Below are positions 5,067 to 22,239 of a stretch of 35,110 nucleotides of DNA, in pieces (within the stretch, counting starts at the first letter, position 1; every line of letters begins with the position of its first letter). A program made the translations under genes and the position numbers. The notes under the pieces were generated by a model. That model did not search any database, had not been told where the DNA came from, and worked only from the letters and a program-made list of their open reading frames with translations. The DNA comes from Terriglobales bacterium (GTDB lineage: Bacteria > Acidobacteriota > Terriglobia > Terriglobales > Acidobacteriaceae), in contig DASTZZ010000116.1 of assembly GCA_035764005.1 (NCBI GenBank), positions 1 through 35,110 of the forward strand, read 5' to 3'.

Positions 5067-6012
5067 GCTTTTGGATTCTGCTTACGGCCGCATCGGCAAA
5101 GACTGCGGTGAGAATGATCGCGCCTTGAATTGCTTTTTCCCAGAATGGATTGATTCCGGCAAACACCAGTGCAGTTCCGATGCTGCCGAGCAGCGCTGTT
5201 CCGAAAAGGGCGCCAATCACGGTTCCGCGTCCTCCTGTAATGGAGACGCCGCCGACCACGACAGCCGCAATGGCCTTTAGCTCGAGGCCGGTACCGAGGT
5301 TGCTGGGAATCGCCGAAAATCTTATCGCGTTGAGGAGAGCCGCCAGACCAGTAAGAGCGCCCATCAGTACGAAGCTGCCGAAGACAATGCTGCGCGGATC
5401 AATACCTGCCAACCGAGAAGCTTCGCGATCGCAGCCTACGGCGTACACAGCTCGTCCTCCGCTTAGGTGACGCAGAGCAACTGCGAAAACAATCAGCAGG
5501 ATCAGCGCAAAACCAACGATCAGCGTTTCCCCGACGCGCTGCGAGAATCCAAACCATTGGAATCCTGCCGGCAGATTCTGCACCCATGCGCCCTGTGTAA
5601 TCCAAAGCAAGCCATCGCGCCAGGCAATGTAGGTCGCGAGGGTAACGATGATGGAAGGCATTCCCACGCGGGCGACCAGCCAACCGTTGCATGCGCCGAG
5701 AATGGCTCCGATCGCGAGCGCCACCAGCGGAAGTACAAGAATGGGAACGCCGGCTTTTGCCAGCCATCCAAGCGCCACGCTGCACACCGCGAAGAGCGAC
5801 CCAACGGAGATATCGATCTCGCCGGTGAGAATCACAATTGTCATTCCCAGCGCCACGATCAGAGTAGGAGCCGTATTGACGAGCAGATCGCGCAGATTCT
5901 GCGCGTCGAAGAAGTCAGGAGCTCGCAAAGCAAGCGCCAGCAGAAGAACCGCAAAGGCGATTACGCAGGGGAGCTCGCGTTTGCCTCGGCTGAGTATCTG
6001 ACGAAAATTCAT
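5029..6012 (-). CDS. rhaP: L-rhamnose ABC transporter permease
   Basis: The 327-residue inner-membrane permease belongs to the CUT2 (ribose/rhamnose/AI-2) family. It has about eight to ten hydrophobic segments and the conserved TGEIDISVGS (near residue 63) and AVVVGGVSITGGRGTV (near 248). It should pair with the permease half of the downstream fusion to form the heteromeric channel. Its ATG overlaps the stop of the ATPase gene by four bases (ATGA, 6009-6012), which indicates translational coupling. The assignment to rhamnose comes from the neighbouring rhamnose enzymes and the RhaS-like binding domain, not from this protein alone. Confidence 0.88.
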   Translation of the reverse strand: MNFRQILSRGKRELPCVIAFAVLLLALALRAPDFFDAQNLRDLLVNTAPTLIVALGMTIVILTGEIDISVGSLFAVCSVALGWLAKAGVPILVLPLVALAIGAILGACNGWLVARVGMPSIIVTLATYIAWRDGLLWITQGAWVQNLPAGFQWFGFSQRVGETLIVGFALILLIVFAVALRHLSGGRAVYAVGCDREASRLAGIDPRSIVFGSFVLMGALTGLAALLNAIRFSAIPSNLGTGLELKAIAAVVVGGVSITGGRGTVIGALFGTALLGSIGTALVFAGINPFWEKAIQGAIILTAVFADAAVSRIQKHVHLDFSRAGSA

Positions 6013-7544: not shown

Positions 7545-7597
7545 GAGTGGAGTCCCGGCCGCGTGCGCTACCTGCGTTTCCAGAAAGTGAAGTTGCC

Positions 7598-8740
7598 TTA
7601 CCTCAGCAGAGCCGATGCCGACCAAAGAATCGGCGCCTCTCCATGCAGGTCGCCGGTATTGCGGGCTCGGGTCAGATAGTAATTCAGATCGTTTTTCTTG
7701 TTCGTACCTTCACAAACGTTGCTGATATCTCCATTCGCGTCGATGTAGTGAACCAGCCCGAGCCATGCCTTGCGCGCGGCGGGAGCATATGTCTTCTTGT
7801 CCAGCCAGCCGTTTTTTACGCCGGTGATCATCGCGAAGGTAAACATGCCTGTCGATGAAGTTTCCGGCCATGCCTCGGGATGATCGATGAGCTGGTTCCA
7901 CGTGCCGTCCTGATTCTGGTACTTGAGGAGCGTAGCCAGCATCTTCCGGTAGGAGCTGAGAATGTGCGCTCGTTCCGGATGATCTTGCGGCATGGAGCGC
8001 AGAAGCTCCGTCATACCGGCAGCAACCCAGCCGTTGCCGCGTCCCCAGAAGAATGGAACATCAGGAGCATGATAGAAGAGGCCGTTCGGCTGCTGGAGCT
8101 TGTCGAGGTAAACCGACATCTCGTGCGCGGCTCGATCGAGGTACTTTCGGTCTCCGGTTGCGCGATAGGCCTGCACTTCGACCTCGGTGATCATGTACAT
8201 GTCATCGATCCAATAGCGCGTTTGGCTGGTCAGACCGTCCGGCGTTGGATCCTGCCACTGCGCGTCCGCAATTGACTTTCCCAATTCGAGATACTTCGGA
8301 TTTTTAGTTTCAATATAAATTTCGAGTGGGACGGTCCCGAAAACGGTATTGTCAACGTGGTTCGGTTTGGGAATCAGCGAAGCCTTATCGCCAAATAGAG
8401 GCTCGAAGCGCTTGATGAGCCGCTGCGTGAGATCGGTATCGTGCGTGAGCTGCGCAAATGTGAGCGCTCCATACCAGGTGCATACCTCGGGATAAATGAT
8501 CGTTGGCGTCGGCGGATGGCGATGCAGATTGATGTAGTCGCTCGCCACGTAGCGTTCCGCAACGCGTTTACCGATCTTTTCCGGTGAAGTCCCCGACGGC
8601 CAGTTGCTGAATTCTTTGATTGCGTCCTGTTGATGCTTCGCGTGCGCCTGCGGAGCAAACGTCAGAACAATCGCGCAGAGCGCCAACTGCAGAACAGCGA
8701 TGGATTTCTTCGACGTTCGCCGCTTAAGACGAATGGACAT
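7598..8740 (-). CDS. Secreted unsaturated rhamnogalacturonyl hydrolase, GH105/GH88
   Basis: The 380-residue protein matches the YteR/RhiN type of family 105/88 hydrolases, which remove the unsaturated galacturonic acid left at the non-reducing end by rhamnogalacturonan lyases. A signal peptide is evident (basic MSIRLKRRTSKK, then a hydrophobic stretch ending near AHA, residue 34), so it acts outside the cytoplasm, probably in the periplasm. Family-like motifs are YWIDDMYMITEVE (with the Asp expected to be catalytic), PFFWGRGNGWVAAGM and SSTGMFTFAMITG, in an alpha/alpha-barrel helical pattern. Its start overlaps rhaM by 17 bp, with GGAG ten bases upstream. Its position inside the rha operon links pectin breakdown directly to rhamnose use. 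GH88 versus GH105 is not certain by eye. Confidence 0.85.
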   Translation of the reverse strand: MSIRLKRRTSKKSIAVLQLALCAIVLTFAPQAHAKHQQDAIKEFSNWPSGTSPEKIGKRVAERYVASDYINLHRHPPTPTIIYPEVCTWYGALTFAQLTHDTDLTQRLIKRFEPLFGDKASLIPKPNHVDNTVFGTVPLEIYIETKNPKYLELGKSIADAQWQDPTPDGLTSQTRYWIDDMYMITEVEVQAYRATGDRKYLDRAAHEMSVYLDKLQQPNGLFYHAPDVPFFWGRGNGWVAAGMTELLRSMPQDHPERAHILSSYRKMLATLLKYQNQDGTWNQLIDHPEAWPETSSTGMFTFAMITGVKNGWLDKKTYAPAARKAWLGLVHYIDANGDISNVCEGTNKKNDLNYYLTRARNTGDLHGEAPILWSASALLR

Positions 8741-9114: not shown

Positions 9115-11331
9115 TCAGCGCAGGAATGACTCCGTCAAACCGCCGTCCACCGGAATAATGTGGCCTGTGGTCTTACCGCTTTGATCGCTGAGCAGCCACA
9201 CGATCGCGTTGGCGCAATCGGTTGGCAGAATCGGCCTTTTCGTTAGTGTGCGCTGCGCATAAAAATCCGCAAGTTTGTCCCGCAACTCTTCTGTGCTCTC
9301 GGATTCCGAAAACGCAATGTTGTATTTGCGCAGCGATTGCATCACGCGATCGCGTGGGAACATCGTGGAGCCCGCGACCACTGTAGCCGGAGCAATTCCA
9401 TTCACGCGTACATGCGGACTGAGCCCGATGGCCAACTCGCGAATGAGGTGATTGAGCGCTGCCTTGCTCACATCGTAGGCTTCGCTTCCCTTTTTAGGAA
9501 CTACGGCGTTGGCGGAACTGGTGAGAACGACAGCTGCCGAAAGCTTTTGATCCTTGAAAGTCGATTCGGCTGCCCGCGCGAGCAAATGATTACCAGTCAG
9601 GTTTACTAGAAAGGTCCTTCCCCACTGCTCCGGCGTTAGCTCGCCGCTTTCGCCTGGCACGGGATAAATCGCTGCCGTGTTAACGATCAAATCCACTCCG
9701 CCGAACTGGAGCGTCGTGAACCGAATCGCGTGCTGAAGACTCGTAGCGGACCCGAGATCTACCTGGGTGTGCGCCACCAACTCAGATGAGGAGAGGGTGG
9801 ACGCCTCCTGCGCGACCTTCGCGGCGCCGCTTGCGTCGGCGTCGGCAACCACAACGTGCGCACCCTTCTTGGCCAGCAATAGAACGACTTCCCTGCCGAT
9901 TCCGCTTGCTCCGCCCACGATCAACGCGATCTTGCGGCTAAATTCGGCTTCCGCGGGCATACGCTGCAGCTTGGCTTCTTCGAGCAGCCAATATTCAATC
10001 CGGAAGGCCTCTGAGCGAGGAAGAGCAACATAGTTCCGACATTGCGTAAACCGGCTGGACTGCTCTGGTCGGCGAGCCTGCGGCAGTTCGCCTCGGACTT
10101 CTCCTTCGTCCAAGGCATTGGCTCCTGCCATCACGTGAATGGCATTGATGAAGAACTCTGTCGTAATGCGAGCTTCCTTTTTGTTCTTCCCGAATCCGAA
10201 CAGTCCCACACCGGGAACGATGACGACCGAAGGATCGGGATCGCGCAGCTTTGGAGAGTCCGCTACAGCCCCCTCCTGGTAGTACTTCTTGTATTCACCA
10301 CGATATTGGACCGCCTGCTCGGCAATTCTCGACTTTAGCGTGCTCACGCTCTCGTCAGCGGGATTCCAATTCACGAACATCGGGCAGATCTTCGTGCGCA
10401 GGAAGTGATCGGGACAGCTTGTCCCCAAAGCAGCGAGATCTTGTGACCACTTCGAGCCGGCAAAAGCCAGTGCATCTTCGTGGTCGTTGTAGTGGGCAAT
10501 CATCCGACGCTGCGACGAGACCGTTCCCCGCAATGTCGGCAAAATCTGTACGGCAATATCTCGCCGGTTTTTGAGAGCATGATGGTACAGTCCGCCGAAC
10601 AATAAGCCTTTGCGCTCCTGATGTCTTTGAACGAACTGACCCATTTCGTCGATCGTCTGAATGCTGTTCAAGTAGCACTCGCGCTGCGTCCGTCCCCAGG
10701 TGAACAGTCCATGGCTCCCAAGGAGGATTCCTTCAGCGCCGAGATTGTTCTTCACTGCAGCCTCAAGCATCAGCGCCAATTCAAAACCTGGACGCTGCCA
10801 CGGCAGCCAAACAATCTTTCTTCCGAACTCCCGATTGAACTCTTCCAGCTTGCGCTTGCCGTTGGCGCTTGCCGCGATGGCAATCGCCCAGTCGGGATGA
10901 AGATGGTCAACGTGGTCATAGGGAATGAATGCGTGCAGCGGTGTATCGATCGACGCAGCGACTTTGTTGTCGCCAAAAGCCGAAAGCGGATAGTAGCGGA
11001 CCATCTCGTCTTCGAACTCTTCTCCGCGATAAAGCTCTTTCAGGCTTCCGAGACGATCGAGATAGAGGAGCGCGAAGCCGGACTCTTTGATTGATCCGAT
11101 GTCGCCGCCGCTGCCCTTGACTGCCAGCACGTGCACAGGCTTGCCGGTAAAGGGATCGGGTAGTTCCATCTTGGAACTTGTATTGCCCCCGCCGAAGTTA
11201 GTGATGCGCAAATCCGCGCCGAGAAGATTCGAGCGATAGCGTAAAAGCGCAAGCTGGTTATCGTCGAGCCGCTTGGCCTCGCGCTGGTCCCATAAATCCT
11301 TAAGAAGAGTAATTTCTGTTGTCTCAGGCAT
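9115..11331 (-). CDS. rhaEW: Bifunctional rhamnulose-1-phosphate aldolase / L-lactaldehyde dehydrogenase
   Basis: The 738-residue protein fuses two pathway steps. Residues 1 to about 420 are a class II aldolase-like domain with ITNFGGGNTSSK, DTPLHAFIPYDHVDHLHPD (candidate zinc histidines) and EGILLGSHGLFTWG. Residues about 445-738 form a short-chain dehydrogenase with the NAD-binding GGASGIGRE motif, the catalytic YDVSK and the C-terminal DGGLTESFLR. This arrangement is known from RhaEW (B. subtilis YuxG type), which cleaves rhamnulose-1-phosphate to DHAP and lactaldehyde and oxidises the latter to lactate. The ATG at 11331 is preferred: it overlaps the rhaB stop by eight bases and gives MPETTEITLLKDLW, whereas the start at 11391 adds 20 atypical residues. 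Confidence 0.93.
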   Translation of the reverse strand: MPETTEITLLKDLWDQREAKRLDDNQLALLRYRSNLLGADLRITNFGGGNTSSKMELPDPFTGKPVHVLAVKGSGGDIGSIKESGFALLYLDRLGSLKELYRGEEFEDEMVRYYPLSAFGDNKVAASIDTPLHAFIPYDHVDHLHPDWAIAIAASANGKRKLEEFNREFGRKIVWLPWQRPGFELALMLEAAVKNNLGAEGILLGSHGLFTWGRTQRECYLNSIQTIDEMGQFVQRHQERKGLLFGGLYHHALKNRRDIAVQILPTLRGTVSSQRRMIAHYNDHEDALAFAGSKWSQDLAALGTSCPDHFLRTKICPMFVNWNPADESVSTLKSRIAEQAVQYRGEYKKYYQEGAVADSPKLRDPDPSVVIVPGVGLFGFGKNKKEARITTEFFINAIHVMAGANALDEGEVRGELPQARRPEQSSRFTQCRNYVALPRSEAFRIEYWLLEEAKLQRMPAEAEFSRKIALIVGGASGIGREVVLLLAKKGAHVVVADADASGAAKVAQEASTLSSSELVAHTQVDLGSATSLQHAIRFTTLQFGGVDLIVNTAAIYPVPGESGELTPEQWGRTFLVNLTGNHLLARAAESTFKDQKLSAAVVLTSSANAVVPKKGSEAYDVSKAALNHLIRELAIGLSPHVRVNGIAPATVVAGSTMFPRDRVMQSLRKYNIAFSESESTEELRDKLADFYAQRTLTKRPILPTDCANAIVWLLSDQSGKTTGHIIPVDGGLTESFLR

Positions 11332-12802
11332 AAACCGTATCTCGATAGTGCTGGAAGCGCTCGGCGGCCTTCGTCCACCGGTCCGTGTCACGCGGCTCGA
11401 AGATCTCGACGGGGAAAGAGCGTTCGATCATCGCTCGGACTTGTTTCAGCGAAGCCGCGGCGCCAGTGGCGAGAATCTGGACTGCAGCGTTACCCAAAGC
11501 AGTGGCCTCGACTGGACCAGCGAGCACTCGCCTGCCGGTTGCGTCCGCTGTGAACTGATTCAGCAGTCGATTCTTCGACCCGCCGCCGATGATTCGGATT
11601 TGTTCAATGCGATCGCCGGTAAGCTGCTCAAGCTCTGCAATCACTCTGCTGTATTTGAGCGCCAGACTCTCAAGTATGGTTCTGGTATATCCGGCCGGAG
11701 TCACTGGCTTTGGTTGATGAGTTCGCGTACAAAATTCGTCGATCGCGACGCACATGTTCTTGGGAGCGAGAAACGATTCGTCATCTGGATCGACCAAATT
11801 CGCAAACGCAGGTTCGCCGGATGCGCACTGTGTGAGCTGCTCATAATTGGATTCATTCCCAGATTGAGACCAGCATTCCCGGCAGCAACGAAGCATCCAC
11901 AGTCCCATCACGTTCTTCAAAAGTCGGGTTGTGCCATTTACCCCACCTTCGTTGCTGAAATTCATCTGCAACGCATCGGGCGAAGCGACAGGAGCGTCTA
12001 CTTCGATTCCGACCAGCGACCATGTCCCAGAGCTGATAAACGCCGTTCCTTCGCGTGCGGCAATCGCGGCGACCGCCGATCCTGTATCGTGCGTGGCCGG
12101 AGCGATCACTGGCGTGTCTGCGATCTTGGCTGCTCCCACATTGGGAAGTAGCTTGCCAACCACGGTGCCAGGCTCAACAATTGGAGCCGGCAACGAAGAT
12201 GGAAGTCCCACACGCTCTAAAAGCCTGGAATCCCATGTGCGGGTGGTCGCATTCACTATTTGGGTTGTACTGGCGTTGGTGAATTCGCAAACTGCATTTC
12301 CGGTCATCCAGTAATGGAACAGGTCAGGCATCATGAGCAGCCGCTTTGCCTTGCTCAGAGCCTCGGGACTTCGCTTCTTCTCGGCAAAGAGCTGGTATAG
12401 CGTGTTGATCGGCATGAACTGGATGCCGGTGATCGAGTAGATTTCCCGTTTCGAAACTCTCTCGAACACCTCTTCCGGAATGCCACGGGTCCGCGAGTCG
12501 CGATAGTGATATGGATTCTCAACGAGCTCGCCTGCGTCATCGAGCAGAGCGTAATCGACTCCCCAAGTGTCCACCCCAACACCTTGCAGTTCGCAATCGA
12601 CCTTTGAGAGCGCCTTGCGTATGGCATTCCACAGCCGCTTCACATCCCAATGAAGAGAACCTGACTCCTGCAGCGGCTGATTGGGAAAGCGATGAACTTC
12701 TTCGATAGCAATCGTCTCGCCTCTCAGACGCGCGAGGACGGCGCGCCCGCTCTCGGCGCCAATGTCGAAGGCCAAATAGTTCTTGGGACCGCCGCTAGGC
12801 AT
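11324..12802 (-). CDS. rhaB: L-rhamnulokinase
   Basis: This FGGY-family sugar kinase phosphorylates L-rhamnulose at C1 with ATP. From the ATG at 12802 it has 492 residues, the usual family length. Motifs run in the expected order: phosphate-binding YLAFDIGAESGRAVLA at the N-terminus, GVDTWGVDYALLD near residue 75, THDTGSAVAAI, AFISSGTWSLVGIE, and adenosine-binding RIIGGGSKNRLLNQFTADATG near 410. A start at 12940 would add 46 residues translated from the middle of rhaI in another frame, so it is rejected. The chosen ATG overlaps the rhaI stop by eight bases, the same geometry as the rhaB-rhaEW junction, which suggests coupled translation. Confidence 0.94.
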   Translation of the reverse strand: MPSGGPKNYLAFDIGAESGRAVLARLRGETIAIEEVHRFPNQPLQESGSLHWDVKRLWNAIRKALSKVDCELQGVGVDTWGVDYALLDDAGELVENPYHYRDSRTRGIPEEVFERVSKREIYSITGIQFMPINTLYQLFAEKKRSPEALSKAKRLLMMPDLFHYWMTGNAVCEFTNASTTQIVNATTRTWDSRLLERVGLPSSLPAPIVEPGTVVGKLLPNVGAAKIADTPVIAPATHDTGSAVAAIAAREGTAFISSGTWSLVGIEVDAPVASPDALQMNFSNEGGVNGTTRLLKNVMGLWMLRCCRECWSQSGNESNYEQLTQCASGEPAFANLVDPDDESFLAPKNMCVAIDEFCTRTHQPKPVTPAGYTRTILESLALKYSRVIAELEQLTGDRIEQIRIIGGGSKNRLLNQFTADATGRRVLAGPVEATALGNAAVQILATGAAASLKQVRAMIERSFPVEIFEPRDTDRWTKAAERFQHYRDTVYA

Positions 12803-13985
12803 ATGACGTGAGGCTCTCAACATTTTTCGCAGCGCGCTCAGCGGTGATGCGTTCCAGGTAGCCGCTCTGGCGAAAGGCTTCGATGGGATCTTCAGGCAGT
12901 CCTTTTGAGATTCGCCAATCGCGAATGGCCGGACGGACATCAGAGGCGAAGGCGTCCTGCAGCAAGCCTTCGGCTTTGATGAGATCGCACTTCTTCTGGG
13001 CCGATGCCAGTTCGCGATCGTCGACCAGCGTGGCCTTCGCGTAGAGCTGCTGCGCCATGCTGACCGTCTGAATCATGGCCTCGATCTTGCCTTTCAGATT
13101 GTGGCTTTGATCGATCATGTACGCGACAGCAGGAGTCTTTCCTGTTTCCCATTCATAGGAAATAATCTCGCGGAAAATGCGGAATACCTGATACGGATCG
13201 ATTGAGCCTAGCGTGAGATCGTCATCGGCATAGCGTCGATCATTGAAATGGAAGCCGCCAAGCATTTCTTCCGACAGCAGCCAAGCCACGATCTGCTCGA
13301 TGTTCTGCGCGGCGTAATGATGTCCGGTGTCGACTAACACTTTCGCCTGAGGACCTGCCGCGCGCGCCAGATGGAGCGCCATTCCCCAATCGGCAATGTC
13401 AGTGTGATAGAACGCCGGTTCAAACGGCTTGTATTCAACCAGCATGCGCTGGTCAGGGCCTAGCTGACTATGCGCAGCTCGCAAATTCTCCTCGAACCAC
13501 CGCTTTCGCTCACGAATGTTTGCTGTGCCGGGATAATTCGAGCCGTCCGCAAACCAAAGCGAGATATCGATGGTGTTCAACCGGCGGCCAATCTCGACGC
13601 TTTCTTTTACGTGCTGCAGCGCGCGTTCGCGAACGGCCTTTTCCGGATTGCCGAAGGAACCGTACTTATATTCCTGATCCTGGAAAAGATTCGGATTAAT
13701 TGAGCCCGGCTGCACGCCGTACTGCTGGGCGTATCCTTTGATTGCGGAGGCGCTGCTCACACCATTCGGACAATCCCATTGGACATGTAGTGCCATTGTG
13801 GGACAGATGCCCGTCAGCCGATGTACCTGGCCGGCATCGCTGAATTTTTCTTCTATGGTCGTCGCCGCTGCAGGCTGAATGAATTTCCCAAACCGCGTCC
13901 CGGTATTCGCAAATCCCCACGAAGGCACCTCGATACGGAACGTTTCCAGCGCGTGAAAAATGCGATCGGTTTGCCGCGAATTCAT
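12795..13985 (-). CDS. rhaI: L-rhamnose isomerase
   Basis: The 396-residue isomerase converts L-rhamnose to L-rhamnulose. It is the Pseudomonas stutzeri/rhizobial RhaI type, a xylose-isomerase-like TIM barrel, not the E. coli RhaA type. Candidate metal ligands appear in VEYKPFEPAFYHTD (Glu), VDTGHHYAAQN (Asp), GFHFNDRRYADDD (His and Asp), and the substrate region includes HVQWDCPNG. It is the first gene of the eight-gene operon. AAGAGG stands just before the ATG at 13985. The promoter region faces the divergent regulator, and a palindromic operator lies about 80 bp upstream of the start. Confidence 0.94.
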   Translation of the reverse strand: MNSRQTDRIFHALETFRIEVPSWGFANTGTRFGKFIQPAAATTIEEKFSDAGQVHRLTGICPTMALHVQWDCPNGVSSASAIKGYAQQYGVQPGSINPNLFQDQEYKYGSFGNPEKAVRERALQHVKESVEIGRRLNTIDISLWFADGSNYPGTANIRERKRWFEENLRAAHSQLGPDQRMLVEYKPFEPAFYHTDIADWGMALHLARAAGPQAKVLVDTGHHYAAQNIEQIVAWLLSEEMLGGFHFNDRRYADDDLTLGSIDPYQVFRIFREIISYEWETGKTPAVAYMIDQSHNLKGKIEAMIQTVSMAQQLYAKATLVDDRELASAQKKCDLIKAEGLLQDAFASDVRPAIRDWRISKGLPEDPIEAFRQSGYLERITAERAAKNVESLTSYA

Positions 13986-14062
13986 ATACAGACCTCTTAG
14001 GATTGCTGAGAGCTTACACCACCGCGAGCAACTCCCCCGCTGCCCTCATCGCTTACGATTGT

Positions 14063-14079
14063 ATTTTGCAATACGAAAT
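14063..14079. promoter_or_regulatory. Putative operator A upstream of rhaI
   Basis: The site reads ATTTTGC-AAT-ACGAAAT, two seven-base arms around a three-base centre. The symmetry extends to 14059-14083, where eight of eleven base pairs are complementary. Related sites with the same spacing are at 14184, 19211 and 21915. A TACAAT box on the minus strand (14058-14063) overlaps the edge of the palindrome and could be the rhaI -10 element, so binding there would block rhaI transcription. The regulator and mode of action are inferred. Confidence 0.55.
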
Positions 14080-14183
14080 GCAATTCAGAGGAGGACAAAA
14101 GCAGGAAATCACGCGTGAATCACTGCTTTTGCGAACCAATGGCTAAGCGCACGCTTGGGACGGCTCAACTCGTCCCATGCTGA

Positions 14184-14200
14184 ATTTCGCATAGCGAATT
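14184..14200. promoter_or_regulatory. Putative operator B upstream of the regulator gene
   Basis: The site reads ATTTCGC-ATA-GCGAATT, with the same 7-3-7 layout as operator A, and the partial symmetry also extends four bases on each side (14180-14204). It lies about 42 bp before the regulator start codon. A TATAGT box at 14222-14227 would make an acceptable -10 element, placing this site over the -35 region, which would suit autorepression. The promoter assignment is weak. Confidence 0.55.
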
Positions 14201-14241
14201 CCAAATTGCCGGTTTTCTTGCTATAGTTCGTCCGCAACGTT

Positions 14242-15405
14242 ATGGCTGCAATGACGCAATCGCGCGATCCCTACCTGGTTAAAGCAGTTGTTCACTCTTC
14301 CAAGCTGCTCACCGCATTTCAAAGCTCCGGCGAAACATTGTCCCTCAAAGAGGTCGCCAGCCGCTCCGGACTGCCGAAGACCATGGTTTTTCGTCTGCTC
14401 TACACGCTGGAGAAATGCGGGCTGGTCGAGAAAGTCGGCGCGAATCTCTATCAATCATGTGTGCGTCCGCTGAAGCATCGCTTATATCGCCTGGGATATG
14501 CGGCGCAAGGAACTGATTATCAGTTTTCAAAAGAGGTTTCCGCGAGTTTGCAGCGCGCAGCCGCGGCCGAAGGCATCGAGCTGATCTGTTTCGACAATCG
14601 TTACAGTGCCAAAGTGGCACAGCGCAACGCCGATCTTCTGGTGCGTGAGAAGGTCGATCTGGCGATCGAATTCCAGACTGACGAAGATGTGGCTCCGATC
14701 GTCGCCGCCAAATACCGCGAAGCGAACATTCCCATGATCGCCATCGACATCCCCCATCCCGGAGCGACGTACTATGGCGCCAACAACTACGAAGCCGGTC
14801 TGATCGGTGGCCGCTATCTCGGCCGCTGGTCAAAAGAAAACTGGGAAGGCGCTGTCGACGAAATCATCCTATTGGAGCTGGTGCGCGCAGGAAACCTGCC
14901 CCGCATGCGTCTGACCGGAGCGCTGGTTGGCATCAACCTCGTACTGCCGAATGCAAAGAACTGCCGCATTACTTACCTCGATGGCGACGGTAATTTCGGC
15001 ACCAGCCTCGAAGCCATGCGACGCCATCTGCATTCATCGAATTCGCGCCATGTATTGGTGGCGGCCGTCAACGATCCGAGTGCGCTGGGAGCCTTGCGCG
15101 CCTTTGAAGAAGCTGGACGCAGCGATTGCTGTGCCGTCATGGGACAAAACGCCTCGCCGGAAGGGCGCGCCGAGCTTCGTGTTTCCAAAACGAGACTCGT
15201 TGGTTCGGTGGCCTATTTCCCAGAACGGTACGGAGAGGACCTCATCCGGCTGAGCCTCGACATCCTGAACCATCGTCAAGTCGCTCCCGCGTTGTTCGTC
15301 GAACACAAGCTGGTGACCCCGAAGACCGTCGACCACTACTATCCCAATGACTGTCTTGGTCAGTTGATCACTGCCTCAGCTCTTGCGCAGGCCAAGACTG
15401 CCTAG
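14242..15405 (+). CDS. Hybrid transcription regulator: IclR-type HTH plus sugar-binding domain
   Basis: The 387-residue protein begins with a winged helix-turn-helix of the IclR kind: VHSSKLLTAFQSSGETLSLKEVA, then RSGLPKTMVFRLLYTLEKCGLVEK at about residues 41-64. From about residue 86 it does not continue with an IclR effector domain. It shows instead a periplasmic-binding-protein (type I, LacI/RbsB-like) fold, with repeated beta-alpha units such as ELICFDNRYSAKVAQRNADL, VDLAIEFQTD, IPMIAIDIPHPGATYYGANN, HVLVAAVNDPSALGALRAFEEAG and CCAVMGQNAS. No signal peptide is present, so it is cytoplasmic. It is transcribed divergently from rhaI, with two palindromes between them. I infer that it senses rhamnose or an oligosaccharide and controls the locus. 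No good ribosome-binding site is visible; an ATG at 14251 is an alternative start. Confidence 0.85.
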   Translation: MAAMTQSRDPYLVKAVVHSSKLLTAFQSSGETLSLKEVASRSGLPKTMVFRLLYTLEKCGLVEKVGANLYQSCVRPLKHRLYRLGYAAQGTDYQFSKEVSASLQRAAAAEGIELICFDNRYSAKVAQRNADLLVREKVDLAIEFQTDEDVAPIVAAKYREANIPMIAIDIPHPGATYYGANNYEAGLIGGRYLGRWSKENWEGAVDEIILLELVRAGNLPRMRLTGALVGINLVLPNAKNCRITYLDGDGNFGTSLEAMRRHLHSSNSRHVLVAAVNDPSALGALRAFEEAGRSDCCAVMGQNASPEGRAELRVSKTRLVGSVAYFPERYGEDLIRLSLDILNHRQVAPALFVEHKLVTPKTVDHYYPNDCLGQLITASALAQAKTA

Positions 15406-15523
15406 CGAATTTCCCGACATCGACAAAGTCGTAAGTCAGCTGGGCATTATCCGCTACTCTGAGGTTCTGGTTACTCCACATAGCCCCACTCGAGGATCGT
15501 GAGACGGGTGTAGCGCCTCACAG

Positions 15524-15560
15524 AAAAAGTACGAGAGCTACATTGTCGTGCAGCTCTCGT
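15524..15560 (-). terminator. Rho-independent terminator after the TonB-dependent receptor
   Basis: A perfect nine-base stem (ACGAGAGCT at 15531-15539 pairing with AGCTCTCGT at 15552-15560) encloses a 12-base loop. On the minus strand it is followed by a run of five T (15524-15528). It lies 23 bp beyond the receptor stop codon. On the plus strand only a weaker TTTT follows some ten bases on, so it may also end the regulator transcript, but less surely. Confidence 0.75.
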
Positions 15561-15582
15561 GGGCTTAAGTCTTTTGGCGGGT

Positions 15583-18500
15583 CTAGAAGATCACTTTCGC
15601 CGCGAGCTGAAGGACGCGGGGATCATTCCAGGTTGCCGCCTGCGGCACAAATGAGGGACTCGGCGCCGACGTAACCTGTCCGAAGCTGGAGGAACCCCAG
15701 TTCGCACTCGGAGCAACCGGATTCCAGTGGTTGAACGCATTGAACATGTCGAGCCGGCCTTCTACTTTGAGTCGCTCCCGAATTGGGAAGCTTCGCGTCA
15801 AAGATAGGTCGACTGTCCAGGCGCCCGGGTTGCGGAGAAAGTCGCGTGGGACGTTCCCGTACGCTCCTGCCGCTGGTTTGCTGAATGCCGCCGGGTTGAA
15901 CACCTGATAGGCATACGTTCCGCCCTTTAGGACCGTCCAGGAATTCAAGTAGAGGGGAACTCCGGGATTCAGGTTTGGACGATCAATCCCGGTGCCTTCG
16001 CCGGTGAAGCTGTTGTCTGCTCCCAGAGTGACATTCGCAGGCAGTCCCGAAGTGGCACGGATCGATGGCGATACTTGCCATCCTTCGACAAGCCAGCGGA
16101 GCGCACCGCTGCCGATCGCAGGACTCGAAGCTACGGCAGATGTGTTGAAGATGTGACGAACGTCAAAGTTGCAGGCGCCGTAATCTGCGCGCGGATTGTT
16201 CTGCTGTGAGTAATAGGTACCGCGCAGATCGCCGTTGAAATCGCCGGTGCTGAGACAATGCGAATAGGTGTAGTTCGCAAGCCAGGTAAAGTTGCGGGCA
16301 AAGCGATGACGGATCGAGGCAATCAAGCCGTTGTAGTTTGAACTGCCGGTGTCGTCGGCGAGGTAGAACTGGCCGTATAAAGAGGCGCCTTGAGTCGGAC
16401 TGGTCGCAATCTGCGTCAAATAGCGCCGCTGCGGCTCGTTGCTCACGCTGCATCCTCCCGTGAACTTTGCGCAAACGCTGGGCTGGTTTTGCGCCCAGTT
16501 GAAATCATAGGAGAGAGGCAAATGCAGACTGCGGCTGCCGAGATACGAAAGTCCTGCCATCCAATTGGAAGCAAACTGCTTCTCGTAGGAAAAGTTCCAC
16601 TGCTGCATGTACATGGGGCGCATGCTGTCCAGCAGCGAAACCCACTGTGCGCCGCCCGGAAAGAAGGTAAACCCGCCAGGAAAAGGATTCTGGTTCGTAT
16701 TCGAATTGGCAACGCAACCATTCGCGATGGAATAGTTCTGCCACGGATTTGAGAATGTACCGCAGCCCGCAGTCGTGATGTTGATCTCGTTCACGACCGG
16801 TGGATTCGACGTGAGCCGTTGGCTGTACCAGGTCATCGTCGAGTCGTAGAGCAATCCATAACCGGCGCGCACCACCTGTTTTCCTGAGCCTGTGGGGTCC
16901 CACGTCAATCCAACTCTCGGTCCGAAATTTCCCCAATGAGTGTTGGTGAATCCCGCAGGTACGCCTTTGTCACCATAAAACAGCATGCCCGCCGGCGCGG
17001 TGGGATAGACGCTGCTGTGAACGTTGTTTTGAAAATCGGCCAGATTGAAGAGACTCCCGCGATGAAAGTAGTCATACGGTTGCAGCGATGGCTCCCAGCG
17101 CACACCAGCTATCAACGTAAGCCTAGGCAGCAGCCGAACCGTGTCTTGACCGTACAAAGAGAACATAGTCTGGCGATAAGCCACTTGCTGTGCGCGACTC
17201 TGGTCCCATCCGCTGTAGTTGCCGAGTAGGAAGTCTGCTAAGCCATCTCCGCTTACGCTTCCGCTAAAGCTAGATGTTCCGTTCTCGTTGTATCCCGTCA
17301 AAGTGTTGTTCTGGGTGTGGATGTAGTCGGCGCCGAAAGCGAAATGGTGTTTGCCGCGAATCCAGTCGATGTCGTCAGCGCCCTGCCACGTATTCACATT
17401 GAAGTGCCCCGGCGCACACGTTCCGCAGCCAACGCCAAAGTAGCCGGTAATACTGAATAGCAGGAAGTTGGGAATGGCTGGGCTCATGTTTACACCCAAA
17501 GTTGTTGGATTGATATCTCGCGGATCGACGCCGCGATTGTCTCGACGGCGGCTCAATGTAACGTGAGCTGAGTTTATAAACGTTGGAGTAAACGTGTAAT
17601 TGTCGCCGAGCACGAAACTCTGGGCGCGCTCCCAGTTGCCGGGAGTTTGCGTGTAGATCAGATTGGTCGCGCTGAACGGCGGAGGCGAAGTGTATTGGTC
17701 AAACAGGTAGCGCCCGAACAACGTTTGCTTGCTGCTGTGGTTGTAGTCGACGCGGCCGATAATCTGGTCTTCATTGTTGATGGTCGGCAATGAGTAAGTA
17801 ATAAAGCCACACGGATCGCTGGAGATCGGGATGTAGTTCCCGCTAAACAGGGCAAGAGCCGCCTTGTCATACGACGCCGGGTTGACCTGATTGCCGGAGA
17901 ATGGCGCTTTCAACGTTTTTCCGGTCGTCGTTCCCGTGCAGCCGGGTCCAACCAGAGTAGTGAAATCGCCGTTCAAAGCCGCCTGCGTAATCGTCTTCAC
18001 TCGCAGGTTATTGGCCTGCGATTTCAGCCGCGTACCCTGATATCCGGAGAAGAAAAACAGCTTGTCATGAACTATGGGTCCGCCAATGGTGCCGCCAAAT
18101 TGATTACGACGTAGTCCGTCTTGCTGAGAGCCTGTCGGGCTGAAACCGCGCGGCTTGGCGTTAAAGATGCCATCACGGTCAAAGTCGAACAGCGTGCCAT
18201 GGAAGCTGTTGGTGCCGGACTTGGTGACTGCGTTCACTACGCCGCCGGGATGAAGACCGTTGCGGGCAGGCAATGAACTCGTTTCAACGCTGAATTCCTG
18301 GAGTGCGTCCGGAAATGGGAACGGCAAGTTTACGTTGCCGAAAGTGTCGTTGTGATCGCCACCGTCGAGCAGGTAATTGGTCCCGTTTGTCTGTCCACCC
18401 GCGACTGCAACCGTCACGGAACTGAAGAAGCTCTTACTGCCGGAAGAGTCATTGGTGAGTGTCGCGCCGGAGACCGTTGCCGGCATCGTGTAGATAAGCT

Positions 18501-18972
18501 GGGTGGCAAATCTCCCGTTCAAGGGTAAATCGACCATGCGCTGCGAATCCACCACGTTGGAGACTGAGGTCGTTTCGGTCTGTACCATCGCCGCGCCAGC
18601 ATTCACTTCTACGATCTGGCTCACCGCTCCGGCCTGCAGCATGGCGTTCAAAGTTACGTGGTCGTTAACCTGAAGGACAATTCCCTGTTGAGCGTAGGTG
18701 TTGAAACTCTGCTTCTGTACTTCCAACTTGTACGCTCCAACTGGCAACCCGGGCAACACGTACCTTCCATCGTTGTCCGTGACAACGGTGTGTACAACGC
18801 CACGCTGTGTTTCGATCATCCTCACGGTTGCGCCGGCAATTACTGCTCCGCTGCTGTCGGTCACCTGTCCTGCGACTTGCGCCACGTTCACCTGCTGCGC
18901 CAAAGCTGCCGGCGATATCAGCAACAAAGAGCCCAGCAGTGCACATCCAATCCGGAACAACGTCTTTCGCAT
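15583..18972 (-). CDS. Large TonB-dependent outer-membrane receptor (Oar-like)
   Basis: From the ATG at 18972 this is a 1129-residue outer-membrane protein. GGAG lies seven bases before that ATG, which decides it over a start at 19068. Residues 1-25 form a signal peptide ending LAQQ. Residues about 30-110 form a carboxypeptidase-regulatory-like Ig domain (VAGQVTDSSGAVIAGATV, GRYVLPGLPVGAYKLEV). The plug follows, with the DLPLNGRFATQL motif, and then a long beta-barrel rich in Tyr, Asn and Gly ending VLQLAAKVIF with a terminal Phe. Such receptors take up large substrates with TonB energy. Its place between the regulator and the lyase, and the operator-like palindromes upstream, suggest it carries rhamnogalacturonan fragments. 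The substrate is inferred from position only. Confidence 0.9.
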   Translation of the reverse strand: MRKTLFRIGCALLGSLLLISPAALAQQVNVAQVAGQVTDSSGAVIAGATVRMIETQRGVVHTVVTDNDGRYVLPGLPVGAYKLEVQKQSFNTYAQQGIVLQVNDHVTLNAMLQAGAVSQIVEVNAGAAMVQTETTSVSNVVDSQRMVDLPLNGRFATQLIYTMPATVSGATLTNDSSGSKSFFSSVTVAVAGGQTNGTNYLLDGGDHNDTFGNVNLPFPFPDALQEFSVETSSLPARNGLHPGGVVNAVTKSGTNSFHGTLFDFDRDGIFNAKPRGFSPTGSQQDGLRRNQFGGTIGGPIVHDKLFFFSGYQGTRLKSQANNLRVKTITQAALNGDFTTLVGPGCTGTTTGKTLKAPFSGNQVNPASYDKAALALFSGNYIPISSDPCGFITYSLPTINNEDQIIGRVDYNHSSKQTLFGRYLFDQYTSPPPFSATNLIYTQTPGNWERAQSFVLGDNYTFTPTFINSAHVTLSRRRDNRGVDPRDINPTTLGVNMSPAIPNFLLFSITGYFGVGCGTCAPGHFNVNTWQGADDIDWIRGKHHFAFGADYIHTQNNTLTGYNENGTSSFSGSVSGDGLADFLLGNYSGWDQSRAQQVAYRQTMFSLYGQDTVRLLPRLTLIAGVRWEPSLQPYDYFHRGSLFNLADFQNNVHSSVYPTAPAGMLFYGDKGVPAGFTNTHWGNFGPRVGLTWDPTGSGKQVVRAGYGLLYDSTMTWYSQRLTSNPPVVNEINITTAGCGTFSNPWQNYSIANGCVANSNTNQNPFPGGFTFFPGGAQWVSLLDSMRPMYMQQWNFSYEKQFASNWMAGLSYLGSRSLHLPLSYDFNWAQNQPSVCAKFTGGCSVSNEPQRRYLTQIATSPTQGASLYGQFYLADDTGSSNYNGLIASIRHRFARNFTWLANYTYSHCLSTGDFNGDLRGTYYSQQNNPRADYGACNFDVRHIFNTSAVASSPAIGSGALRWLVEGWQVSPSIRATSGLPANVTLGADNSFTGEGTGIDRPNLNPGVPLYLNSWTVLKGGTYAYQVFNPAAFSKPAAGAYGNVPRDFLRNPGAWTVDLSLTRSFPIRERLKVEGRLDMFNAFNHWNPVAPSANWGSSSFGQVTSAPSPSFVPQAATWNDPRVLQLAAKVIF

Positions 18973-19091
18973 TTCCGATCTCCTTCGTGATTGGCGCCTT
19001 TTTCGCGCGCATCGGTTTCGCAGTTTGCAGGCGTGGGTGATGTAACCTTGAGCGAAAAACACTGTCAACCCGGCTCACGATAGTTGCGACC

Positions 19092-19108
19092 ATTTCACAT
19101 TACAGAAC
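19092..19108. promoter_or_regulatory. Degenerate operator-like site near the receptor gene
   Basis: The left arm ATTTCAC-ATT repeats exactly an 11-base stretch (with the preceding C) of the complement of the stronger site at 19211, but the right arm is poor (ACAGAAC). It lies about 120 bp before the receptor start codon. On its own it would not be convincing; it is listed because three related sites cluster in 136 bp. Confidence 0.25.
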
Positions 19109-19183
19109 TTAAGTTGGTCCCAGAAATCGACCCAAGTACCTGAATCTATGAGACATGGGAGTACGTGCCAATAGCCAACACAT

Positions 19184-19200
19184 ATTCTGGATTGCGAAAT
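19184..19200. promoter_or_regulatory. Operator-like half-site upstream of the receptor gene
   Basis: The right arm GCGAAAT matches the proposed consensus perfectly and follows ATT. The left arm (ATTCTGG) matches at only four of seven positions. It begins 27 bp before the stronger site at 19211, a spacing that could allow paired binding. Confidence 0.3.
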
Positions 19201-19210
19201 CAGAAATGGA

Positions 19211-19227
19211 CTTTCGCAATGTGAAAT
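19211..19227. promoter_or_regulatory. Putative operator C upstream of the TonB-dependent receptor
   Basis: The site reads CTTTCGC-AAT-GTGAAAT, the same 7-3-7 palindrome as operators A and B, with outer symmetry (TGG at the left edge, CCA at the right). It lies about 240 bp upstream of the receptor start at 18972. Its presence here links receptor expression to the rhamnose operon. Confidence 0.5.
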
Positions 19228-19274
19228 GCCACGACGGAGCGGTTGAACGGTAGATCGGTTCAGGAATTACTACG

Positions 19275-19557
19275 CTGTGGTTTGGTGGAAGCCCGCGACT
19301 TCAGTCGGGGGCGCACGTAGCGAAGCCGTGCGTCTATGCGAAGGCGAGAGAAAGCCGCGCTTTTAGCGCTGGCCCACGCGCGAAGCGCATGCAAATACCG
19401 CATGCATTGCGGCGGCCAGTCTTTGCCCCGGGACACCACAACGAGCGCGCTTCGCGCGTATACCAGCGCTAAAGCGCGTTTGGTCGTTCGCCTATTAGAC
19501 GCACGGCTTCGCGGCGTGCGCCCCCGACTCAAGTCGCGGGCTTCCACTAAAACCAAC
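19275..19557. repeat. Nested palindromic repeat element, about 280 bp, non-coding
   Basis: The left arm (about 19275-19388) and right arm (about 19447-19557) are imperfect inverted copies of each other. Both carry GTGGAAGCCCGCGACTT, GTCGGGGGCGCACG, GCGAAGCCGTGCGTCTA and TTTAGCGCTGG in the same order when the right arm is read in complement. Each arm also contains its own small hairpins, for example GCACG...CGTGC, and the centre holds GCATGC...GCATGC. Frames on both strands across it translate to the same VRPRLKSRASTK ending, as expected of a palindrome and not of a gene. It sits between the lyase and receptor genes. It may be a MITE, another dispersed repeat or a structured RNA. Confidence 0.8.
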
Positions 19558-19645
19558 TACAGTGAGTTAACTGCACCAGCGCGGAAAATTGTGCCCCTCT
19601 TTTCGGCGTTGAATCACAGCACTCTTTGTTTCCTGCTCTCGAGCC

Positions 19646-21820
19646 CTATTGGTTGTTGTTCGCAACGGCATCGTTCGCCGGCTCAGACGTGCTGCTGTTC
19701 ACATATTCGTAATCATTCCAGCCAGTCACCTCGTGTGCCGCTGAGGCGTTGGTGATCTCCATGCGCAGCGCATCGTACATAACCCCCTGCATTCTGCTGA
19801 CGTTGAATGTGAGTACGTTGTCGGCTCCCGGCGGTTTGAGTTGGCTGGTATCCCACTGAAACACCACCCACTGATAGGTCCCCGACAATCCGCTGCGAAC
19901 ATCGGCATCGGCATTTTTCACATGGAATCCATGCCAGACCAGGGCATTCCCATTTAGGGAAACGGTCAGACTTGATTCTGTCGCTGCAAGGCCGACTGAG
20001 AGAACTACATATTGCCCTTGCTGCTGTTGCGCATCGGTGGTTGAGAAATGGACCTGCCAATCGGGAACGGCGGCGGTCCCGCAATTGCCGATATACGCTG
20101 GACAGATGTATTTATACCCGTCCGCGGTCTGATCTGCCGAGTTATAGACACCTGCGTAGAGATTGGGGTTGAAGGTATGCCACTGGTTGTAATTCCACTT
20201 AGTCAAATCGTTCGTTGCGGGAGTCGAACCCACGGGAGTGGCGTAATAGACGACGGCTCCGTTGGTTGATGCGAAGTCCGCCCAGTAGTTCCAGTTGCCC
20301 CAAAACTGGCGATCGTCCTGAACAGCGTCGCCGACACGGGCGGTGTATTCGTCGCTGTAATTGCTGTCGAGATCGACGGGGTTTGTGATTTGCCCGTGCA
20401 GAAACTCGTGCGATGAACGATCGGCGGTACCGATGGTCCAAACTGGCGCCGCCGTTCCGAAGGTTTCCGGAGTGATGTTCACCGCGAGGTGCGTGGTTCC
20501 ACCAGCTTTGACGGCCACGTTGTCCTGCCTCAACTCTCCCCATTGTCCAAGGGCATACACAGTCAGCCGGTAATTTCCTGGCGCAATATTGTGAAGGTTC
20601 ACAATGCCTGCTGGATTGATGTTTTCCCAATATTCCCAGCCCGCGTGCGAGTACTGGACATTTGTGTTGGCATCGCTCAGCACGGCCCACGCCTGATGCA
20701 AATCCAACCCTTTCGTGCCGCCTACCTTTACCTGCACCTCGCCTCGCGCGTTGGAAGGCACGTAGCCGCTGTTCACAAGCACGGTTTCGGTGTCATACGC
20801 GGGCTGGATTTGCGCAGCCGCGGTCAAAGCTTCCTGATAGAGCGACGCTGCGTTGGTGTGAGTGGCGTCAAATTGGTTGAAGTGTAGATAGAACGGCCCA
20901 TACAGCCGCTGCATGGTGGCGTTTACGGGAACCGTGAAGTTGATCTGATTATCGAGGTGATTGGAGTACGCCTCCATGATGAGCAGATTTCCGGTGAAGA
21001 TCAGGTCCTGCTTTGTCGGTCCGCCGGTAAGCGATTCCGAACTGGGAAGAACCATCCATGCGCCTATGCCCGAGCCGAAGACTCCTTCAGCCTTGTGCAG
21101 GTACTCGTAGCTGGAGTAGTCGTACTTGGTATAGAACTGCCGGCGGTAGTTCGGCGGAGCAGGCAATCCGTGAAGATCGGAGGTTGCGTCCTGCACGTTA
21201 CGTCCGCTTGTCAGGCCGGTCCCGAAGAGAACCGAATCGGGCAGCGGAACGCTCGTCGCGCCGAGATTTGAAAGCCCGGTGTTCACTGCATAGGTATTGG
21301 TGAACTGGCTCAGGTCTCCACGGAAGACCCACTGCACTTGTCCGACACTTGCTGCGTTGTTTCCTGGAACATGGTCGAGAGTGAAGTACACGTGGATTCC
21401 AGGATCATTCGCGAACAGCAGGTCGTGCCACGTCCAGGTGAAACCCGAACTCGCGTCCGCCGTGTGTGTCACATAGAAGTCGATGTAATTGCCATGGGGA
21501 TCGAGATAGTAGTTGGACGTGAGCGCCCCGCCGATGTTGCCGGCGTTATCCATATAGAAGCCTTTCGGGCCATGGCTATCCCTATTCGTCTGATCGATCA
21601 GTTCCACATCGGGAGCTGCCGACCAGCGAATGCTGTTTACACGTCCATTGCCGGGCAGCCAATGCACTGTTAGCGTCCCATTCGAGATCACCCAAAGATT
21701 GGAGTTTGAAGTATCGATTGTGATCGGCGACTGCCCGTGCGTATAAGTCGCACCTGCGAAAACGATTGCGGCCATCATCAGAAAAACACGGAATTGCATC
21801 GATAAACGACCCAGGTTCAC
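19646..21820 (-). CDS. Secreted rhamnogalacturonan endolyase, PL4
   Basis: This protein of about 724 residues fits polysaccharide lyase family 4, which cleaves the rhamnose-galacturonate backbone of pectin by beta-elimination. A signal peptide (VFLMMAAIVFAGATYTHG) directs export. The N-terminal catalytic beta-sandwich includes LWVISNGTLTVHWLPGNG and the following DPHGNYIDFYVTH. The middle fn3-like domain has AWAVLSDAN, YWENINPAGIVNLHNIAPGNYRLTVYA. The C-terminal carbohydrate-binding-like domain starts near PVWTIGTADRSSHEFLHG. A GTG at 21820 preceded by GGAGG four bases upstream is chosen over the ATG at 21799, which lacks a binding site; the frame is open back to 21928 but the extra residues are not signal-like. 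An operator-like palindrome lies about 95 bp upstream. PL11 is excluded by the overall layout. Confidence 0.82.
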   Translation of the reverse strand: MNLGRLSMQFRVFLMMAAIVFAGATYTHGQSPITIDTSNSNLWVISNGTLTVHWLPGNGRVNSIRWSAAPDVELIDQTNRDSHGPKGFYMDNAGNIGGALTSNYYLDPHGNYIDFYVTHTADASSGFTWTWHDLLFANDPGIHVYFTLDHVPGNNAASVGQVQWVFRGDLSQFTNTYAVNTGLSNLGATSVPLPDSVLFGTGLTSGRNVQDATSDLHGLPAPPNYRRQFYTKYDYSSYEYLHKAEGVFGSGIGAWMVLPSSESLTGGPTKQDLIFTGNLLIMEAYSNHLDNQINFTVPVNATMQRLYGPFYLHFNQFDATHTNAASLYQEALTAAAQIQPAYDTETVLVNSGYVPSNARGEVQVKVGGTKGLDLHQAWAVLSDANTNVQYSHAGWEYWENINPAGIVNLHNIAPGNYRLTVYALGQWGELRQDNVAVKAGGTTHLAVNITPETFGTAAPVWTIGTADRSSHEFLHGQITNPVDLDSNYSDEYTARVGDAVQDDRQFWGNWNYWADFASTNGAVVYYATPVGSTPATNDLTKWNYNQWHTFNPNLYAGVYNSADQTADGYKYICPAYIGNCGTAAVPDWQVHFSTTDAQQQQGQYVVLSVGLAATESSLTVSLNGNALVWHGFHVKNADADVRSGLSGTYQWVVFQWDTSQLKPPGADNVLTFNVSRMQGVMYDALRMEITNASAAHEVTGWNDYEYVNSSTSEPANDAVANNNQ

Positions 21821-21914
21821 ATAGCCTCCGAAAACGCAATGGACGGGCTCCCTTGCACGGCAATGCTCCTCCGCGCGTGGGCGCTCCGCAATTATTTTTG
21901 GAAGGAAAATGTCA

Positions 21915-21931
21915 GTTTCGTAATGCAAAAA
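21915..21931. promoter_or_regulatory. Putative operator upstream of the rhamnogalacturonan lyase
   Basis: The site reads GTTTCGT-AAT-GCAAAAA, matching the consensus ATTTCGC-AAT-GCGAAAT at 13 of 17 positions, with the AAT centre kept. It is weaker than sites A to C and lacks outer symmetry. It lies about 95 bp before the lyase GTG. Confidence 0.35.
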
Positions 21932-21969: not shown

Positions 21970-22239
21970 GTGGTTTCTTATCCTCGTGCGCCCGATGCCC
22001 CGCGCCGGGCGCATTGCACATTGCAGAATGGAAAAACGATACTGGTCAGGCGGCTGGATCCTCCATTACTGACACTCTTAGCGTTGGCTAAAGGCCGTCG
22101 GAGCCATGACGAAATCTTAGGGCGCATATCTGGCATCGAAGAAGAATTCGGCATGCATCGACAGATCACAGCATGGATAAGGGCCATCCATCTATACGGG
22201 AACGGGCTGAAAATGAAATTGCTTGTTCATCCCATCTAA
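21970..22239 (+). CDS. Possible small ORF of unknown function
   Basis: A GTG at 21970 preceded by AGGAG opens an 89-residue frame. The C-terminal part is fairly protein-like (LLTLLALAKGRRSHDEILGRI, then EFGMHRQITAWIRAIHLYGNG) and could form a small helical, winged-helix or PqqD-like fold. The N-terminal part is Arg/Pro-rich and unconvincing. It is divergent from the lyase gene. I do not recognise it; it may be a gene remnant or chance. The whole 21821-22387 interval otherwise holds only the operator-like site and promoter sequence. Confidence 0.25.
   Translation: MVSYPRAPDAPRRAHCTLQNGKTILVRRLDPPLLTLLALAKGRRSHDEILGRISGIEEEFGMHRQITAWIRAIHLYGNGLKMKLLVHPI

Follow-up and report, generated by a model that had tools for sequence, protein, structure and literature searches.

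LacI-family and AraR/XylR-type regulators with a periplasmic-binding-protein sensor join a helix-turn-helix (HTH) domain to a type I sugar-binding fold, and Escherichia coli KdgR is an IclR-family regulator of uronate genes. For the Acidobacteriota, a dominant soil phylum, we know of no mapped sugar regulon, and no paper on one was found in the open-access literature. The window analysed here, a 35,110-nucleotide stretch of a Terriglobales bacterium (contig DASTZZ010000116.1), carries a 17-bp palindrome, RTTTCGCANTGCGAAAY, in the control regions of a rhamnose-catabolic operon beginning with rhaI, a regulator gene at position 14242, an Oar-like outer-membrane receptor gene and a rhamnogalacturonan-lyase-type gene. 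This palindrome is probably the operator of the 14242 regulator, which would act as a rhamnose-responsive dual regulator, activating its targets and repressing itself.

The closest described operators, in the accessible portions of the source, are those of IclR group 1, with the consensus GKTYCRYW3-4RYGRAMC (Suvorova and Gelfand 2021, PMC8222616), and they resemble the present system in IclR-type HTH, autoregulation, adjacent operons, paired sites and helical-phase effects. The palindrome does not represent a new kind of operator, because RTTTCGCANTGCGAAAY, its matrix compared by eye with this published consensus, fits it; the first-pass annotation had proposed a new operator. The tandem sites of PMC8222616, as far as its accessible portions go, lie 18–22 nt apart (~3–4 turns), whereas the commonest distance here is 118–127 bp, and the proteins of that set belong to COG1414, with no acidobacteria, periplasmic, loop or rhamnose terms in the accessible main text. 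Known rhamnose regulators, in the available part of their survey (Rodionova et al. 2013, PMC3870299), likewise control rha catabolism, transporters, rhamnosidases and rhamnogalacturonan genes, but they belong to the AraC, DeoR and LacI families, whereas the HTH here is IclR-type; the available main text contains none of the terms 'IclR', 'Acidobacter' and 'Solibacter'. The IclR-family KdgR of Thermotoga, in the accessible part of PMC3750489, is alike as an IclR-type regulator of uronate genes. From LacI-family and AraR/XylR-type proteins, the 14242 regulator differs in its HTH, which is IclR-type and not LacI, GntR or AraC. As far as searched, an HTH_IclR/RbsB chimera as a rhamnose regulator, its paired long-distance layout and its fixed promoter position would be new, and no description of an HTH_IclR/RbsB-type hybrid regulator was found in the open-access literature.

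The regulator and its predicted operators, the latter given without strand, are as follows.

14242..15405, plus strand: regulator, IclR-type winged HTH (residues 19–65) fused to a ribose-binding-protein-like sensor (residues 88–344)
14063..14079: O1, predicted rhaI-proximal operator, rank 1 in the window, 22.0 bits with a matrix whose training set excludes the window
14184..14200: O2, predicted regulator-proximal operator, 16.8 bits, 121 bp from O1 and 21 bp before TATAGT
19092..19108: O3, predicted receptor-proximal operator, 18.4 bits, 23 bp upstream of the receptor -35
19184..19200: O4, predicted additional operator, 19.1 bits, 92 bp from O3
19211..19227: O5, predicted distal partner of O3, 18.4 bits, 119 bp from O3
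21915..21931: O6, predicted lyase-proximal operator, 19.5 bits, rank 2
22013..22029: O7, predicted distal partner of O6, 16.3 bits, 98 bp from O6

When every 17-mer of the window is ranked with the window-free matrix, the top seven are those at 14063, 21915, 19184, 19211, 19092, 14184 and 22013, and all of them sit in three control regions, namely rhaI/regulator, Oar-like receptor and lyase; the best coding 17-mer reaches 14.4 bits. Within these regions, which total 1517 bp, seven sites of at least 16 bits compare with 0.018 expected from a second-order Markov model of the same composition. With a matrix variant restricted to 40 upstream regions, almost all of them at most 62% identical (L106, at 68%, included), five of the seven still exceed every coding 17-mer of the window, and those at 14184 (12.6 bits) and 22013 (10.8 bits) fail to do so. 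The first-pass annotation had listed four of these sites (14063, 14184, 19211 and 21915), all of which are present letter for letter; its list was correct but incomplete, lacking 19092, 19184 and 22013, and the 21915 site that it called weaker in fact ranks second. Its statement that the sites are only intergenic stands for 21915 only on the condition that translation of the lyase begins at ~21799 rather than at the earliest candidate TTG (21928). The O1 centre lies 86 bp ahead of the rhaI ATG, and the O1 17-mer recurs on the other strand upstream of the regulator orthologue on G034:C104.

Conservation was assessed beside regulator orthologues, taken as the best 80 of 238 confirmed relatives of the 14242 protein from a scan of genome contigs, whose loci come from Acidobacteria or from groups that we take to be Acidobacteriota. 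The 79 upstream regions comprise 78 of these 80 loci plus the window (L079 and L113 are excluded, their regulator start being cut off), each extending 400 bp upstream of the regulator or less at contig ends, and from them a symmetric 17-bp matrix was built by expectation maximization. A strict pattern matches 32/79 regions, against a mean of 0.03 in mononucleotide shuffles and 0/79 for the reversed pattern, and the matrix exceeds 12 bits in 70/79, where 50 Markov runs average 1.7 and peak at 5, so that conservation upstream of orthologues, a check set beforehand, holds. Across the 80 loci, 103 sites reach 16 bits in 121,270 intergenic positions vs 58 in 1,062,854 coding positions, a split made with crude open reading frame (ORF) calls that count some regulator promoters as coding.

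The regulator itself is assembled from two parts. Residues 19–65 match HTH_IclR (PF09339, 1.5e-12, 47.5 bits, cut-off 22), which bears out the earlier suggestion of an IclR-type DNA-binding domain, and residues 88–344 match Peripla_BP_4 (PF13407, 8.8e-21, 75 bits). The Pfam scan returned neither an IclR_C effector domain nor a LacI HTH for the protein, and the NCBIfam scan gave no model up to its cut-off. Because IclR_C was looked for and not found, the protein is not filed as a full IclR-family member; judged by its domain matches, it combines an IclR-type HTH with another kind of sensor, as an HTH_IclR + Peripla_BP_4 chimera. The AlphaFold2 model (mean pLDDT 85.5) consists of a winged HTH and a binding-protein domain, and Foldseek matches it to ribose-binding proteins (2ioy, TMt 0.85). 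Among the best 60 of 64 PDB sequence matches, most are sugar-binding proteins aligned to the sensor, two are IclR proteins aligned to the HTH part, and no best stretch spans both. Orthologues of 44–77% identity occur in 6 of the 60 relatives searched, one of which has two copies. A derivation of the sensor from the window's own ABC binding protein finds no support (BLASTP E 0.4). A second subfamily of HTH_IclR/binding-protein fusions, at 37–40% identity, occurs at G000:C125:69027-70082 of the same genome (L002, L040) and in G004, G022, G024 and G036; the idea that it shares the operator was rejected, with no upstream site above 10 bits in 5/5. This second subfamily is found in the vicinity of rhaI in G022, G024 and G036.

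The sites often occur in pairs, defined as one site of at least 16 bits with a partner of at least 12 bits 30–330 bp away. There are 109 such pairs, or 96 after removal of similar ones, and of the latter 69 lie at 98–134 bp and 47 at 118–127 bp, with a density per bp of 1.86 inside 98–134 bp vs 0.10 outside. The 75 distances within 85–140 bp fall into groups at 87–92, 98–103, 109–115, 118–126 and 132–136 bp with nothing between, forming a roughly 11-bp ladder, with the qualification that the main group is 9 bp wide and that promoters from related genomes do not count as independent; the other 21/96 lie outside this range, seven of them at 60–79 bp. At a period of 11 bp, the 28 distances that fall beyond the main group have the same phase as it does (2.0 vs 2.2; p 0.0002 against uniform), and p is 0.0095 at a period of 10.5, 0.19 (not significant) at 10.0, and 0.004 with the period free from 8 to 14 bp (best fit 11.5), values that are optimistic because related genomes are not fully independent. 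Looping between paired sites is a plausible hypothesis.

A second regularity concerns the distance to the promoter. The promoter features of the window that bear on it are the following.

19040..19068, minus strand: receptor promoter, TTGACA (19063–19068), 17-bp spacer, TTACAT (19040–19045), 23 bp from 19092
14222..14227, plus strand: candidate -10 of the regulator gene (TATAGT), predicted from sequence

Searching both directions from 224 sites of at least 15 bits for sigma-70-like -35/-10 elements, in 407 non-redundant flanks, yields 5, 24 and 5 promoter-like matches at offsets of 22, 23 and 24 bp vs 0.4, 0.6 and 0.6 in shuffles, that is, 34/407 flanks at 23±1 bp vs 1.6 expected, and no more than two matches at each of the remaining offsets between 0 and 44. 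At recognisable target promoters, the operator centre would thereby lie at about -68 if the promoter is canonical, and ~-68 is a class-I activator position. The regulator's own promoter is arranged differently: -10-like hexamers start 8–14 bp past the site in 6 cases vs 1.2 in shuffles (49 non-redundant flanks), and therefore the site would overlap the regulator -35 region, as O2 would reach the -35 position in the window if the spacer is 17 bp. Autorepression of the regulator is likely, on evidence that is modest. This geometry bears directly on the possibility that the protein is a plain repressor relieved by rhamnose, with pairs serving as independent operators or as a repression loop and with the -68 site making no polymerase contact. 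Repression is common among sugar regulators whose sensors are LacI/RbsB-like, and a repression loop depends on helical phasing, signs of which are present; against it, the fixed 23±1 bp to the -35, with no comparable peak 10–11 bp to either side, is expected of a polymerase-touching activator, those target promoters are free of overlap with the site, and several target -10 boxes are poor (e.g., GAGCAT). A plain repressor is rather unlikely.

Activation of targets combined with self-repression would work as follows. The regulator would be a cytoplasmic sugar sensor, its IclR-type HTH carried by a ribose-binding-protein-like domain, that binds the palindrome sites and senses L-rhamnose or a close derivative. 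At the rhaI operon, the receptor and the lyase, it would activate from a class-I-like position, whereas at its own promoter the site overlapping the -35 region would allow it to repress itself; the distal site may help through cooperative binding or a small DNA loop. Rhamnose released from rhamnogalacturonan would thereby switch on receptor, lyase and catabolic enzymes together. Tentatively, and with considerable reservation, the protein could represent an undescribed Acidobacteriota class of sugar regulators, a class-I activator and self-repressor whose cassette would consist of a distal operator, ~11 turns of DNA, a proximal operator, 23 bp and the -35, bound by two dimers in a phased loop. 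Such a cassette would provide a simple rule (a pair plus 23 bp to the -35) for locating pectin and rhamnose genes, and may show which of the many Oar-like receptors import rhamnogalacturonan pieces. If true, the set of non-orthologous rhamnose regulators would gain a solution of IclR type, and the cassette would serve as a natural test of action by an IclR-type DNA-binding protein over ~11 turns of DNA.

Candidate targets extend beyond the window. In the same genome, RTTTYGYAWTRCRAAAY with at most two mismatches occurs at 35 places vs 14 for the control, six of them in the window. The 29 places outside it were examined in 28 loci and have an accepted partner only at C51, C124 and C93. On C124, a pair 99 bp apart lies between an Oar-like receptor gene and a PcRGLX-like lyase gene, presumably of family PL26, and on C51 a pair 122 bp apart precedes an Oar-like receptor gene followed by PL22-like and GDSL-esterase genes; both loci are unlinked to the regulator. 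Doubtful pairs occur on C27 (96 bp, partner 13.1 bits), at C55:4114 (164 bp, 13.0 bits) and on C83 (98 bp, both below 14 bits), and the remaining places are single and are taken as mostly chance, their coding position having been checked for only some of them. The site before an Oar-like gene on C65 reaches 22.6 bits, with no partner and no -35 seen at 23 bp.

A looser listing, which takes in sites from 14 bits upward with a promoter scoring above 5.5 at 22–24 bp, keeps redundancy and has no control, contains 75 sites with promoter geometry, 18 before rhaI, 24 before Oar-like genes and 33 unclassified by a first tblastn. From 32 inspected site/orientation cases, ten target proteins were scanned, comprising two RhaT, a GH78, a GH106, two GH39-like, an arabinose/fucose-isomerase-like, a class II aldolase, a RuBisCO-large-like protein and one without a match; NCBIfam identified a third RhaT among the relatives' targets. 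The motif thus stands at rhaI, RhaT, GH78 and GH106 in regulator loci across genomes. At L120:8522-9814, the RuBisCO-large-like gene is divergent from a regulator orthologue and has an operator-like site upstream. Among 20 rhaI genes in 18/61 genomes, an upstream motif above 11 bits is found in 3/4 within regulator loci vs 0/16 elsewhere, the sixteen being 12 in genomes without a close orthologue and 4 with one elsewhere (G000:C125, G024 and G036 twice). The regulon suggested by the first-pass annotation, in which genes of rhamnose catabolism share control with those for Oar-like receptors and rhamnogalacturonan lyases, is supported as a candidate by this shared motif, conserved beside orthologues.

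Several observations weigh against assigning the palindrome to the 14242 regulator. In five of the 79 upstream regions, the best site stays at or below 8 bits, the list of relatives' targets is drawn from loci chosen for holding the regulator, and one rhaI gene in a regulator locus, on G034:C9, lacks a site (this gene is internal to an operon and convergent to the regulator). In the window, only the receptor promoter fits the 23-bp rule, the rhaI and lyase promoters having no convincing -35 at that distance. Strict single-site counts of RTTTYGYNNNRCRAAAY over 61 genomes give 13 vs 7 for the control in seven regulator-bearing genomes and 81 vs 30 in the other 54, and so do not track the regulator. 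A looser pattern had given 34 vs 9 in the regulator-bearing G018, G024, G034 and G036, and 17 vs 18 in G001–G005, all without a close orthologue, in nine hand-chosen genomes run ahead of the stricter 61-genome test, which did not repeat the difference. The stricter result counts against a motif that is simply specific to the regulator at genome scale; because single-site genome counts are weak, weight is placed on pairs, promoter distance and orthologous promoters. Moreover, a true IclR regulator on C93 of the same genome carries the same operator type upstream, as a pair at G000:C93:16728-16866 (L004; 20.2 and 14.2 bits, 122 bp apart), its relatives in G001, G003 and G004 also have paired sites (116–122 bp in all), and 8/10 genes related to the regulator through the HTH only have an upstream site above 10 bits. 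The motif is thus not peculiar to the 14242 regulator, and some sites may be another's.

These C93 data open the way to an explanation by shared operators, under which the receptor and lyase sites, together with those of C51 and C19, would belong mainly to the C93 regulator and answer a 2-keto-3-deoxygluconate-type signal from galacturonate. The C93 protein has HTH_IclR + IclR_C domains and is KdgR-like by context; it shares the operator type, but its sensor is IclR_C, whereas that of the 14242 regulator is RbsB-like. It adjoins genes for a FAH-fold hydrolase and a PfkB-like kinase (19 bits, short of the cut-off, its ORF being truncated at the locus end), one site of this genome lies ahead of uxaC, and C51 holds an oligogalacturonate-lyase-like gene. 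Set against this are the looser-pattern counts, in which the palindrome is not in excess in G001–G005 (subject to the stricter test just described), the rhaI upstream sites seen only at regulator loci, and L051, L052 and L060, where receptor/lyase orthologues with paired sites lie at most 10 kb from a 14242 orthologue, in loci that were chosen by the regulator. Control of these sites mainly by the C93 protein is accordingly rather improbable.

It is more doubtful that two sites occur simply where each divergent promoter has one, the spacing being a by-product of intergenic length. In the window, 14063 does adjoin rhaI and 14184 the regulator, but pairs also precede single promoters, as at the window receptor (119 bp), the L051 and L052 receptors (122 and 120 bp), C51 (122 bp) and the rhaI of L055, which lies ~4 kb from the regulator (121 bp), and in L046–L050 a rhaI pair is accompanied by a third site at the regulator. 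Pairs at promoters without a divergent partner are therefore not merely two promoters, and this account is very unlikely. Chance palindromes in AT-richer intergenic DNA, although the palindromic pattern also exceeds its reversed control without the regulator (81 vs 30), are strongly disfavoured to the point of being negligible by the composition-matched expectation in the three control regions and by conservation at orthologues.

The window genes neighbouring the 14242 regulator that bear on its candidate regulon are listed below.

12795..13985, minus strand: L-rhamnose isomerase rhaI (TIGR02635-like; E 3e-151, 503.6 bits, just under the curated cut-off of 531)
11324..12940, minus strand: rhamnulokinase-like (TIGR02627; 511.4 bits, just under the cut-off of 528)
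9115..11391, minus strand: bifunctional rhamnulose-1-phosphate aldolase/dehydrogenase (NF006189, above cut-off)
7598..8740, minus strand: GH88-family hydrolase (PF07470, 2e-60)
2976..7625, minus strand: sugar ABC transporter, with ATPase (6009–7625), permease (5029–6012) and permease-binding protein fusion (2976–5066)
15583..19068, minus strand: Oar-like TonB-type outer-membrane receptor (PF25183, 1e-197), true start probably 18972
19646..21928, minus strand: lyase of rhamnogalacturonan lyase type, with polysaccharide-lyase-family-4 domains II + III (PF14683, PF14686), true start probably 21799

The rhaI and rhamnulokinase ORFs overlap by 146 bp as called (12795–12940), and the kinase start is probably further downstream. 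The starts of the receptor (~18972) and of the lyase (~21799) are probable ones, suggested by signal-peptide-like N-termini, and the catalytic domain of the lyase has no Pfam match. The hydrolase at 7598–8740 is presumably a GH88/105 unsaturated glycuronyl hydrolase. Within the transporter, positions 2976–5066 form a single ORF combining an ABC permease with a sugar-binding protein (BPD_transp_2 + Peripla_BP_4), and this fusion is matched over nearly its whole length in L035, L063, L080 and L109. Between the lyase end and the receptor promoter, positions 19336–19480 form a GC-rich region, self-complementary in places as read by eye, that is possibly a repeat element. Elsewhere in the window, positions 30175–34719 encode a 1514-aa protein with DMFA2_C, DUF4082 and Ig-like domains.

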